Under the pieces are notes generated by a model. It had not been told where the DNA came from and did not search any database. It worked only from the letters and a program-made list of their open reading frames with translations. Of a stretch of DNA of 64,000 nucleotides, positions 32,634 through 37,232 are shown in pieces. The translations under genes and the position numbers were made by a program. Source of the stretch: Alphaproteobacteria bacterium. Its GTDB lineage: Bacteria; Pseudomonadota; Alphaproteobacteria; SMXP01. Position 1 is the first letter of the stretch. Every line of letters begins with the position of its first letter. Location of the stretch: positions 1 through 64,000 of the forward strand of contig JANQPV010000044.1 in NCBI GenBank assembly GCA_028285305.1. Reading direction: 5' to 3'.

Positions 32634-33227
32634 ATGCCCCTTTCAAAGGCACACAAAGCCGAAACCCGCGAAAAGATCATGGCGGCTGCCGGGCGTTTGT
32701 TTCGCCTGCGCGGTTATGAGGGTGTAGGGATCGATGCCATCATGGCGGAGGCGGGGCTGACCCGGGGCGGGTTCTACGCCCATTTTCAATCCAAGAAGGA
32801 CCTGTTTGCCGCGGTGCTGAGCGAAAATCACGACTTGGTGCGCAGGCTGAGGGAACGTAGCGGCGAAACGAAACGAGACCTTGCGTTTGAGGCGGTAGAC
32901 ATTCTCTCCGCCTATCTCGATCCCGCAAATTTCGCGAAAGTGGGACCGAACTGCACTCTGTCTTCATTGAATGTGGACGCTTCGCGTGCTTCTAAGGGCG
33001 CGCGCGATGGATTCACTCACTCCATAAAGGCGCTCAATAAAGAGATCTTGAGAGGCAAGAGCGCGTCTGAAGATGGGGCCTATGACGAGCGGGCTCTCGT
33101 GATTGCGGCGCTTGCGATCGGATGTTTGTCACTCGCCCGGGCGAGCAATGACCGGGCGCTTTCTCGAGCCGTTCTCAGGGCAGGCCAATCCCAAGTGACG
33201 GACTGGCTTATGCCGTCAAAAGATTAA
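32634..33227 (+). CDS. TetR/AcrR-family transcriptional regulator
   Basis: 197 residues. N-terminal TetR helix-turn-helix: TREKIMAAAGRLFRLRGYEG then IDAIMAEAGLTRGGFYAHFQSKKDLFAAVL (about 11-60). The C-terminal ligand domain is helical, with a cysteine (GPNCTLSSL). The start is ATG 32634 with GGAG at 32625-32628; a TTG at 32604 in the same frame is not needed. Likely represses itself and the divergent MAPEG gene. Its stop codon overlaps that of the convergent gene within TTAA at 33224-33227. Confidence 0.9.
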   Translation: MPLSKAHKAETREKIMAAAGRLFRLRGYEGVGIDAIMAEAGLTRGGFYAHFQSKKDLFAAVLSENHDLVRRLRERSGETKRDLAFEAVDILSAYLDPANFAKVGPNCTLSSLNVDASRASKGARDGFTHSIKALNKEILRGKSASEDGAYDERALVIAALAIGCLSLARASNDRALSRAVLRAGQSQVTDWLMPSKD

Positions 33228-33718
33228 TTGCTGCGGCAATTGCAGACGGACATCTGTCCTTGCGCGGTTGTCTTCCAACGTCCGGTCCACTTGGCATTGT
33301 CGTCTTTGCACACTTTTGGACACTTGGCCCGGGCATCGGCGTCATTCCAGATGGTGCCGGCGCTTACGTCGTAGGCCACATTTTCGACAATGATCCTGCG
33401 AGGCTGTCCGTCGGGGAAATACACGCCCAAGCAATTGTTTTTGGGGCCCGCCACGACCCAAGGATGGGACATATAGGTCTGCTGACTATACTCATGGCCT
33501 TCGCCGATATCGGCGTATTTCACGCGCTCGCCGTCATAATTGATCCAGAACAATTGGATGGGCCGGCTGGTGCGGTTTTCAACGATTATCTCGGTCGAAA
33601 ACTTGCCGTCACGAGCTTCCAGTAGTCCGGCGTCTTCGGACGGGCAGGCAGCGTGGAGCATTGTCGTGCTGGCTAGGATTGTCCATATCAGAGCGGCGGC
33701 TGAAGCTAGAGTTCTCAT
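33224..33718 (-). CDS. Secreted VHL-beta domain plus MVL-like (mannan-binding lectin) domain protein
   Basis: 164 residues with a signal peptide (about 1-23, ending LHA). Residues about 38-112 look like the beta domain of the von Hippel-Lindau protein: the order ENRTSRPIQLFWINYDGE, Y..IG.G, then YMSHPWVVAG parallels NRSPR, WLNFDGE, Y..L..G, SYRGHLW in the human protein. Residues about 119-161 (IWNDADARAKCPKVC ... KWTGRWKT ... MSVCNC) match the mannan-binding lectin MVL repeat (WNNDDAQ, CP, W.G.W, MSVC). Cysteines are plentiful, suiting an exported protein. Carbohydrate or hydroxyproline-like ligand binding is possible but unproved. It is followed downstream by the convergent tetR gene. Confidence 0.75.
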   Translation of the reverse strand: MRTLASAAALIWTILASTTMLHAACPSEDAGLLEARDGKFSTEIIVENRTSRPIQLFWINYDGERVKYADIGEGHEYSQQTYMSHPWVVAGPKNNCLGVYFPDGQPRRIIVENVAYDVSAGTIWNDADARAKCPKVCKDDNAKWTGRWKTTAQGQMSVCNCRSN

Positions 33719-33797: not shown

Positions 33798-34409
33798 CTA
33801 CTCCGCGCTGGGGCAAGGTGCGCCGGCGGCCTGCCACTTTAGAATAGAGTCTGTGGTCTCTGCGGCGGAATAGGGCGCGGCCTCACGGCCGGGGCCAGGG
33901 TCCCAACCCCAGTGCACGAGGGGATCGTGGGACACATGCTCGGCGACTTCTAGAATCGTGCGGCCGCCATTGCGTTCGGGATCTTTGATCTGCTCACAAA
34001 TCTCTTGCGAAGACTTATCGAACCACTGCATCTCGGCGGGGGCGAGAAGCCAGACCTCGTTACCGGGCGGGCCGTGGGGTGTGGGCGAGTTTTCCCTGCC
34101 GTGGCATGTGCCGCACTGAACGAACTCGATCCCAATCCGGGTCTCGCCGCCGGAGATAAACATGCCGTGCGGTCTGGTTTTGCCGTAGCTGGGGCCTGAC
34201 CACATGGGAATGCCGCTGTCGTCCACATGACAATTGGCGCAGCGCGGATGGGAAAAGACCTCGTGGATCTTCGCCCAATTTGCCAATCCGTCTTCCTGCG
34301 AAACCGATCCGGCTTCGAGCGGCGCCAAAGGCGCTTCTTCTTCTTCCGCCAACGCGTGTACAACGATGAAGGCGGTCAGCCCCGTCAGAGCAAAGATTAG
34401 TTTCTTCAT
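33798..34409 (-). CDS. Periplasmic diheme cytochrome c
   Basis: 203 residues with a signal peptide (about 1-21). Two CxxCH heme sites are present: CANCH (about residue 58) and CGTCH (about residue 99). Between them are conserved Pro-Met and His-Met stretches that could supply sixth ligands. No match to a specific named cytochrome. It begins 9 bases after the end of the molybdopterin subunit gene (34419-36662) on the same strand, so it is the probable electron acceptor of that oxidoreductase. Confidence 0.82.
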   Translation of the reverse strand: MKKLIFALTGLTAFIVVHALAEEEEAPLAPLEAGSVSQEDGLANWAKIHEVFSHPRCANCHVDDSGIPMWSGPSYGKTRPHGMFISGGETRIGIEFVQCGTCHGRENSPTPHGPPGNEVWLLAPAEMQWFDKSSQEICEQIKDPERNGGRTILEVAEHVSHDPLVHWGWDPGPGREAAPYSAAETTDSILKWQAAGAPCPSAE

Positions 34410-34418
34410 CTTGTCCCC

Positions 34419-36662
34419 CTAGACGAAGTCGATATGCTTGTTGAGCGGCAATTCTCTAATGCGTTTGCCGGTTGCCGCAAAGATGGCGTTGGCAAGGGCG
34501 GGCGCAGCGGGAGGCACGGCCGGCTCGCCGATGCCCCGCAAATCAGGCCCGTTGGTCAGTGCGCGCACTTCGATTTCGGGCGTCTGATAAAGCCGCATGC
34601 CCTCAAAAGCGTGGTAGTTGGTTTGCTCCGCCATTCCGTCGGCATAGGTGATTTCCGCGTTCATGGCGTGACCAAGGCCCCATATAATGCCGCCTTGCAT
34701 TTGCGCTTCGATGTTGACGGGGTCCAGCACTTTGCCCACCTCTGCTGCGCCGAACACTTTGTCGATCTTGATGCCCTGCGGCGTGTCGGTCACTTCGACC
34801 ACTTCAGCGGCGGCAACCCCGAACGAGAAGGTGAAGGCAACGCCGCGTCCGCGATTTTCGCCAAGAGCCGAGCCCCAGTTGGACATCTCTCCGACGGTCT
34901 CCAAAACTTTGCGTGACGGTTCATGCCAGCACAGGCGGATACGTTCTTCCAACGGGTCGGCGCCTGCGGCATGGATGAGTTCGTCGAGAAAGCAGTCATG
35001 GAAGAAGCCGTTGCCTGAGGCGCCGACGGAGCGCCAGGAACTGACGGGCACAAGAGGCGGCACCCGGTAGCCTGTCACCCGGTAGTTCGGAATACTGAAG
35101 GGTTGGTCCCAAGCGCCGGCGACGATCGTTACATCCGGGCCGGGCAGAGGAACCCCGTAGCGCTCGCCGAATTGAGAGGCGCTGACGGACGGATAGGCGA
35201 TCCCCAGATCGTAGGCGTCCACTTTCCCGTTCTTTACCGAACCGCGGCCTCGGGCCATTCCCATTGGGCGAGGAAAGTCATGGGTCATGTCTTCTTCGCG
35301 GCTCCAGGTCATTTTGATGGGCGCGCCTTGATGAGCCATCGCGAGTTGAACAGCCTGTTGAACATAGTCGTCTTCCAGGCGCCGACCGAAACTGCCGCCA
35401 CCGATCAGCACATGGACTTTGATGTTGTCCGCATCAAGACCGGTTAGCGAGGCAATGTTCTGAATCACAATGCCTGGGATCTGGGTGCCCGTCCAAATAT
35501 CAAGTTGCCCGTCCTTAAACTGAACGATTGTGTTCAAAGGTTCCAATGCCGCGTGGGCGAGATAGGGAACCTTGTACTCCGCTTCGATGAGGTCCGCGCC
35601 GTCGAGCGCGAGGGCTACGTCGCCTTCGTTGCGAAACTGACTGTCTTGACGCTCTTCGGTGAAGGAGGCCGCAGCCTCAGTCCACTGCTCATCGGATGTC
35701 GCCGGGTAGGGGGCGCTTCCCCAGTCACAGTCGATCGCATCGGCCGCTTTGAAGGCGCGCCACGTATTGTCTGCAAGAACGCCAACGCCGCCGTCGATTT
35801 CCACTACTTTGATCACACCGCGCATTTTCTCTGCGCTTGACGCATCGAACTTCTTGAGGCCGCCGCCGAAACGCGGGTTAGTGCGCACGGTGGCGAACAC
35901 CATGTCCGGCATGATGACGTCGATGCCATATTCCGCGGTCCCCGTTGACTTCTCAACAATGTCCAGACGGCGCATGTTTTTGCCGAGATACCGCCATTCG
36001 GACTCCGGTTTCAGTTTAACATTGCTGGGCGGTTCGATAAGGGCTGCCGCTTCGGCAAGCGATGTGTAGCTCAGCTCGTCACCGGACGGGGTTATGACCG
36101 CGCCGTCCTTGGTCTTGAGCTCCGCTTTGGCAATGCCCGATTGTTCCGCTGCCGCAGAGAGCAAAACGTCGCGAGCGACGGCACCTGCCATCCGCATGCG
36201 ATCAAAACCGTCTGGCACCGTAGTGGAGCCGCCGGTCATCTGCATGCCCATGAATTTGGACATGGCTGAGCCCAATCCTCTCAGAGCGGACGCGCCCAAA
36301 CCTTTGTCCCAAGCGGCGGCGGGGAAGCCTTCAGACGCGACGATGGCGTTGAAATAGGAAGGACTAGGCGGACCGGGGTCAACCCGGATGTCTTCCCAGG
36401 CGATGTCGAGTTCTTCGGCAACGAGCGCGGCTTGAATGGAATAGGCCCCCTGGCCTAGATCCGCCCTGGGAGTAATGATCGTGACGCCCGATTGATCGAT
36501 CTTGATGAAGGGATTGAGGGTTGTTTCGCCGTCGCCTAATATGTCCGTAAGCGGATTAGATACGGGCCGCTGATAGGCGTAATAGCCAAAAGCCACTCCG
36601 CCCGCGATGGCGGCTGAGCCGATAAGAAATGTCCGCCGTGCGATGGTCCCTATGCTAGCCAT
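34419..36662 (-). CDS. iorB: Molybdopterin subunit of isoquinoline-1-oxidoreductase-type enzyme
   Basis: 747 residues, xanthine dehydrogenase family (aldehyde oxidase a/b-hammerhead and MoCo domains). The N-terminus has a twin-arginine motif (ARRTFLIGSAAIAGG), so folded export with its iron-sulfur partner is likely. Later motifs include VLIGGGSFGRRLEDDYVQQA and the C-terminal GIGEPAVPPAAPALANAI, which match IorB-type large subunits. The start is ATG 36662 with a strong GAGGGGGG ribosome-binding site; the frame is open upstream through the iorA end. Substrate class: N-heteroaromatics or aldehydes; iorB is used by similarity. Confidence 0.85.
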   Translation of the reverse strand: MASIGTIARRTFLIGSAAIAGGVAFGYYAYQRPVSNPLTDILGDGETTLNPFIKIDQSGVTIITPRADLGQGAYSIQAALVAEELDIAWEDIRVDPGPPSPSYFNAIVASEGFPAAAWDKGLGASALRGLGSAMSKFMGMQMTGGSTTVPDGFDRMRMAGAVARDVLLSAAAEQSGIAKAELKTKDGAVITPSGDELSYTSLAEAAALIEPPSNVKLKPESEWRYLGKNMRRLDIVEKSTGTAEYGIDVIMPDMVFATVRTNPRFGGGLKKFDASSAEKMRGVIKVVEIDGGVGVLADNTWRAFKAADAIDCDWGSAPYPATSDEQWTEAAASFTEERQDSQFRNEGDVALALDGADLIEAEYKVPYLAHAALEPLNTIVQFKDGQLDIWTGTQIPGIVIQNIASLTGLDADNIKVHVLIGGGSFGRRLEDDYVQQAVQLAMAHQGAPIKMTWSREEDMTHDFPRPMGMARGRGSVKNGKVDAYDLGIAYPSVSASQFGERYGVPLPGPDVTIVAGAWDQPFSIPNYRVTGYRVPPLVPVSSWRSVGASGNGFFHDCFLDELIHAAGADPLEERIRLCWHEPSRKVLETVGEMSNWGSALGENRGRGVAFTFSFGVAAAEVVEVTDTPQGIKIDKVFGAAEVGKVLDPVNIEAQMQGGIIWGLGHAMNAEITYADGMAEQTNYHAFEGMRLYQTPEIEVRALTNGPDLRGIGEPAVPPAAPALANAIFAATGKRIRELPLNKHIDFV

Positions 36663-36664
36663 GA

Positions 36665-37123
36665 CTAAACCCCCCTCAGTTTGGCAGCCGCTGTTTTGAC
36701 TGCTTCGCGCACCCGCACATAAGTGCCGCAGCGGCACAAATTGGCCGATAAGGCCCGGTCGATGGCTTCATCGTCGGGATCGGGATTGACCTCGAGGAAA
36801 GCGGCGGCCGCCATAATCTGTCCGGACTGACAGTATCCGCATTGAGCAACTTGGTGTTCGATCCATGCCGCTTGCACCGCGTGGAGCGCATCGGGGGTGC
36901 CTAGGCCTTCGATGGTGGTTACTTCGCCGAAAACATCGCCCACAGGCATTGAGCAGGAGCGTATGGCCATGCCATCAATGTGGACCGTACAGGCCCCGCA
37001 CGCGGTAATGCCGCATCCATATTTTGGGCCTGTGATTCCCAGTTCGTCTCTCAGCACCCACAAGAGAGGCATGTCTTCCTCGACTTCGACCTCGTGCTCT
37101 TTCCCGTTGACCTTCAGTTGCAT
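36665..37123 (-). CDS. iorA: [2Fe-2S] subunit of isoquinoline-1-oxidoreductase-type enzyme
   Basis: 152 residues. The plant-type [2Fe-2S] cluster ligands are in [16 protein letters not shown] ... C, and the second cluster ligands in CGYCQSGQ ... CRCGTY. This is the small subunit of two-subunit molybdenum hydroxylases; the FAD subunit is absent, as in IorAB. Start ATG 37123 has GGGGAA 5-6 bases upstream and fits the family better than ATG 37144. Its stop is two bases before the large-subunit start, so both are translated together. Confidence 0.9.
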
Positions 37124-37232
37124 GTGATTCCCCGTCTCGTTCATCCGCCTTGACGACCTTCTTATACTAGGAAACGGGCGTCACGTCGCCTTGCATTGGT
37201 CTCACTATCAAAGATGTGATGGGCTCGGAAAG

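Follow-up and report, generated by a model that had tools for sequence, protein, structure and literature searches.

The gene at positions 33224 to 33718 of the window, by which we mean the whole 64,000-nucleotide stretch of DNA that was analysed, almost certainly encodes an exported protein in which a VHL-type beta domain is joined to a single MVL lectin unit. We consider the best explanation to be an exported, disulphide-stabilised binding protein of two modules, perhaps for hydroxyproline-bearing glycoproteins, and give this reading a probability of roughly 0.5 on the strength of sequence comparisons and a low-confidence structure model. Both modules are known from bacteria and it is the combination that is new. 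The features on which the argument draws are as follows.

33224..33718, minus strand: gene for the VHL-MVL protein, 164 amino acids plus stop codon (Pfam domains, homologues)
33647..33718, minus strand: signal-peptide-like N-terminus, residues 1-24, with a positive start, a hydrophobic stretch and LHA-A (by eye; homologues share the layout)
33644..33646, minus strand: Cys25, present in all 20 bacterial VHL domains compared; presumably forms a disulphide with Cys96
33452..33607, minus strand: VHL beta domain core, residues 38-89 (Pfam), with the pocket equivalents W58, Y68, T81, H85 and W87
33431..33433, minus strand: Cys96, likewise present in all 20 bacterial VHL domains; the human VHL equivalent is Gln132
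33236..33340, minus strand: single MVL unit, residues 127-161, of the four-cysteine type (C133, C137, C159, C161) (Pfam, structure comparison)

A gene for a probably exported VHL-MVL protein

A sequence-only reading of the window had placed an open reading frame for a 164-residue exported protein at this position without giving a strand; the frame is present and lies on the minus strand. It is preceded by a ribosome-binding-site-like GAGGGG (GAGGGGAAT) 5' of the ATG start codon, and the GC content at its first, second and third codon positions is 53, 48 and 66%. A chance reading frame is unlikely because homologues keep the full-length protein at 37-40% identity. The N-terminus resembles a signal peptide when read by eye, in support of the proposed export; the product would be placed outside the cytoplasm. 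Each of the motifs on which the two domain assignments had been based (NRTSRP, FWINYDGE, Y..IG.G, SHPW, WNDADAR, CP, WTGRW and MSVCNC) was found, and a Pfam HMM search bore out both assignments above the curated cut-offs. The VHL family (PF01847) matched residues 38-89 with an E-value of 8e-8 and 32.6 bits (cut-off 21), covering 52 of the 82 profile positions, and the MVL family (PF12151) matched residues 127-161 with an E-value of 3e-11 and 43.6 bits (cut-off 25). At the level of PDB sequences the match to human VHL was weak (E about 0.017), while the MVL lectin 1zhq was found with an E-value of 3e-12 and gave two matches, since it contains two units. In the whole genome this protein is the sole VHL match and the sole MVL match, and NCBIfam holds no family for it that our search could find.

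The structure model is consistent with both folds but alone would not prove a VHL fold. AlphaFold, run with a four-row alignment, returned a mean pLDDT of 58 and a pTM of 0.47, with the VHL part predicted best (about 67-77), and arranged the chain as approximately seven strands, then a helix and two more strands. The sequence-only reading had expected a beta-sandwich followed by an MVL-type unit. The second of these was recovered, since VIA-align of model residues 118-164 placed 1zhq first among the chains compared (Z 5.1, 2.1 A, 46 residues). For the sandwich the outcome was mixed: the best 50 Foldseek rows were all human VHL (E 1.3e-3 to 1.3e-2; no MVL chain was among these 50), but the model's pLDDT is modest and, for residues 41-113, the VIA-align Z of 3.8-4.0 for VHL was level with that of T-cell receptor and unrelated immunoglobulin-like chains.

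The VHL half retains most residues of a hydroxyproline pocket

The VHL half is the more informative of the two, as hydroxyproline-pocket residues are kept besides the probable fold. An alignment with 19 other bacterial VHL domains and human VHL extends to about residue 112. The protein probably has the beta-sandwich in common with the beta domain of human VHL (pVHL, PF01847), and differs from it in its predicted export, in carrying an extra invariant cysteine pair, Cys25 and Cys96, which would form a disulphide, and in having no alpha domain behind the beta domain. An MVL unit follows instead, and no Elongin C-binding alpha domain appeared in the Pfam search, so that a ubiquitin-ligase role is not implied.

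The hydroxyproline site of human VHL is formed by Trp88, Tyr98, His110, Ser111, His115 and Trp117, of which Ser111 and His115 bond the hydroxyl group and Tyr98 the carbonyl group of hydroxyproline, while His110 acts through its backbone (PMC9528729). The aligned residues of the window protein are W58, Y68, Q80, T81, H85 and W87, so that all five side-chain positions are matched, with Thr for Ser111, and Gln stands in place of His110. Among the 20 bacterial domains, position 111 is Ser or Thr in every case, W88 and H115 are each kept in 18, and W117 is kept in 18 and replaced by Phe in the other two; Y98, the carbonyl contact, is kept in 12 and lost in 8. Over 79 columns of these 20 domains, the mean conservation of the five positions exceeded that of random position sets (permutation, p about 2e-4), as it did when the draw was limited to aromatic, His and Ser columns (p 1.7e-3), although the profile that collected the domains had been made from fusion proteins with the pocket, which favours pocket columns. 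Leaving out the fusions and near-duplicates gave p 7e-4 for the 14 remaining rows, a step that only lessens the profile bias, and the rows are also related to each other. The ten flanking positions that form the HIF-peptide subsites are not conserved in the window protein or the other bacterial domains in this way, their conservation being average (permutation, p 0.57). A conserved pocket with unconserved HIF subsites is the pattern that would be expected if the pocket were in use, though not for HIF. This conservation across aligned bacterial VHL domains is new here.

The same alignment also feeds the most serious competing explanation, namely that the VHL-type domain is a stable, disulphide-bonded beta-sandwich scaffold in which the conserved Trp, His and Thr residues belong to the fold core and bind no hydroxyproline, the work being left to the MVL unit or other surfaces. 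We regard this as a real possibility that falls short of an even chance. The non-pocket residues N78, G93 and D/N90 are conserved about as strongly as the pocket, and Gly93, Asn78 and the two cysteines at least equal it, so part of the conservation signal may be structural; Y98 is variable, and searches of the genome for collagen and PF13640 families showed no hydroxyproline source of the cell's own. Set against the scaffold are two related VHL domains (L030 and L031) in which W88, Y98 and H115 have all gone while the cysteines, G93, N78 and D90 remain, from which the fold seems able to stand without the pocket, albeit on the evidence of one lineage only. Both of these domains (from genomes G479 and G362, respectively) sit within a protein whose N-terminal part is zinc-peptidase-like and carries an HEGAH motif.

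VHL-type domains also occur on their own in small proteins with signal-like N-termini, on plasmids of the cyanobacteria Nostoc sp. C057 and Calothrix sp. NIES-4101 and in genomes G124, G227 and G273, as well as within or on the C-terminal side of larger proteins, and beside an MliC domain. The two cyanobacterial proteins are 46-53% identical to the VHL half of the window protein and share its cysteines and pocket; unlike the window protein, they stop after the VHL domain and have no MVL unit. The gene from Nostoc sp. C057 (L021:4971-5330), a strain with the hornwort Phaeoceros given as its source, adjoins an integrase gene. A hypothetical protein of Litorilituus sediminis is likewise described as bacterial, predicted to be secreted and endowed with a VHL beta domain, and no MVL unit appears in the available part of that report (PMC9002001). 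The same paper proposes tumour suppression for the protein, which nothing in the present results supports.

The MVL half departs from the tandem lectins

The C-terminal half shares with the Microcystis viridis lectin MVL (PF12151; 1zhq, 1zhs) a unit with the motifs W-N/S..DA, W/F-T-G-x-W and MSV. The lectin has two tandem units per chain, and the window protein has only one, which is placed behind a VHL domain and a signal-like N-terminus, carries four cysteines and has an Arg at the conserved Gln of the QW motif. A second cysteine pair (C..C and CxC) is found in most of the single MVL units in our set, while tandem units have one pair. This conserved Gln and the first conserved Trp of the unit are presumably residues that contact sugar in the lectin. 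At the Gln position the four fusion proteins, each with one MVL unit, have R, E, E and L, compared with Q or H in tandem MVL proteins, and one of the four also lacks the first conserved Trp of the unit.

These departures bear on what the unit may bind. A glycan is the likely ligand, but the replaced Gln makes a specificity for mannan or oligomannose doubtful, and we think it rather improbable that the N-glycan core or mannan is the ligand. The MVL assignment of the sequence-only reading therefore holds, whereas its label of a high-mannose lectin is not safe, given the replaced Gln and the one unit in place of a tandem pair. For similar reasons it seems unlikely that the whole protein is simply a lectin or adhesin for mannan or N-glycans, with an MVL unit that binds oligomannose in the manner of the Microcystis lectin and a VHL part that is a spacer: the MVL match is indeed the stronger of the two, but the exchange of Gln and the missing Trp of one fusion speak against it.

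In other proteins MVL units occur as tandem pairs or singly after other protein types. A secreted-looking carbon-nitrogen hydrolase of the nitrilase type (L003:1486-2631, genome G047) and a thiaminase-I-type protein (L007:259-1677, genome G249) each carry a single unit at their C-terminal end, and from these two the MVL unit looks as if it were a general add-on binding module. Three alphaproteobacterial secreted-looking proteins (L034, L035 and L043, of genomes G543, G568 and G672) have two near-identical MVL units, close to the layout of the cyanobacterial lectin, and each adjoins a conserved open reading frame that starts MA(Q/E)..AVFL(E/Q)G.LFRHI.VMSL.

The fusion is rare but recurs

That each domain occurs elsewhere in bacteria had been stated in the sequence-only reading and proved correct, since both were found separately in other proteins. 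The pairing, which it had singled out, is rare but not unique to the window protein, as at least three more genes exist in another alphaproteobacterial genus. Among 385 sampled genomes of the class, 8 had an MVL match, 6 a VHL match and 3 both (G000, G126 and G229), and in these three the domains lie in one open reading frame, in four genes in total, two of which are in G126. The three other genes come from two alphaproteobacterial metagenome-assembled genomes (MAGs) from coral skeleton, IP29b_bin.162 and PL25b_bin.64, the sample names referring to skeletons of the corals Isopora palifera and Porites lutea (PMC9868349). In our collection the order of G126 consists of just these two genomes. 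The products of the three genes have the same domain order, share 37-40% identity with the window protein and score above both Pfam cut-offs, with 39-43 bits for VHL.

Co-occurrence is not always fusion, as one genome of the phylum sample (G672) carries VHL and MVL in separate genes. No MVL unit was found in the four relatives of the window's genome within its family. A single-sequence scan of genome contigs with the VHL-MVL protein gave no match, an alignment-based scan matched only the three coral MAG loci, and searches of phages and IMG/VR found no relatives. In a tree of VHL domains the fusions formed one group in 30% of bootstrap trees, a resolution too poor to tell one fusion event from several. 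Our search of the literature, outside which most subscription journals lay, found no report of the VHL-MVL pairing or of pocket conservation in bacteria.

The gene neighbourhood gives no function

Upstream of the VHL-MVL gene, on the same strand, lie genes for a [2Fe-2S] protein and a molybdopterin oxidoreductase (34419-37144) and a cytochrome-like open reading frame (33798-34409, minus strand) that ends 79 bases before the VHL-MVL gene. The cytochrome-like product has two CxxCH motifs, its gene stands behind the two-gene molybdenum hydroxylase set, and it had no match in Pfam or NCBIfam. On the other side, a gene for a TetR regulator converges on the VHL-MVL gene, and the stop codons of both overlap. 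The neighbours of the other three fusion genes encode a serine hydrolase, an alcohol dehydrogenase, a methyltransferase and an epimerase; we looked for a neighbourhood that the window gene has in common with these three and found none, so context gives no function. It is accordingly very improbable that the product is a periplasmic accessory protein of co-transcribed molybdenum hydroxylase genes (a two-subunit oxidoreductase with a c-type-cytochrome-like protein), which the shared strand and the 79-base spacing would favour but against which the unrelated neighbours of the other fusions count.

A proposed two-module binding protein and its possible ligands

A surface or periplasmic recognition role, as had been proposed from the sequence, is the natural reading of two such domains behind an export signal, and we judge binding or recognition to be probable; the high-mannose specificity that came with this proposal is doubtful. 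The occurrence of both domains elsewhere as add-on modules, or as small separate proteins with a signal-like N-terminus, counts in favour of this role. In the exported two-module binding protein that we favour, secretion would bring the chain outside the cytoplasm, where a disulphide would hold it. The N-terminal beta sandwich would present an aromatic pocket resembling that in which human VHL holds 4-hydroxyproline, the C-terminal unit would offer a cleft of the sugar-binding type, and the two modules may cooperate in holding a ligand outside the cell, such as a glycoprotein, belonging to another organism or to the cell surface, that contains hydroxyproline or is otherwise modified. A hydroxyproline-type ligand is the most specific hypothesis for the VHL half, though a tentative one that we hold to be less probable than its alternatives taken together.

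We also considered a hydroxyproline substrate made by the cell itself, an idea that searches for collagen and PF13640 families did not support. No match to a collagen family was found in the genome and the only PF13640 protein found is a dioxygenase of the YbiX/PKHD type, so that such a ligand would have to come from outside. A bolder and quite unlikely extension is that exported bacterial VHL-type domains in general are hydroxyproline-binding modules and that the VHL-MVL protein, with its two sites, reads hydroxyproline-bearing N-glycoproteins of the collagen, extensin or arabinogalactan type from animal or algal partners. The coral-skeleton origin of the MAGs with the other fusions (PMC9868349) is compatible with an interaction with eukaryotes without demonstrating one.

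Were the two-site reader real, the pocket of an oxygen-sensor receptor would exist outside any HIF or ubiquitin pathway. If the pocket does bind hydroxyproline, the domain could be used as it stands as a small reagent for the affinity capture of hydroxyproline glycoproteins, the part of the VHL oxygen-sensing system that does the recognising would exist independently of ubiquitin ligation, and bacteria would export readers of a modification that is typical of animal and plant extracellular matrices.
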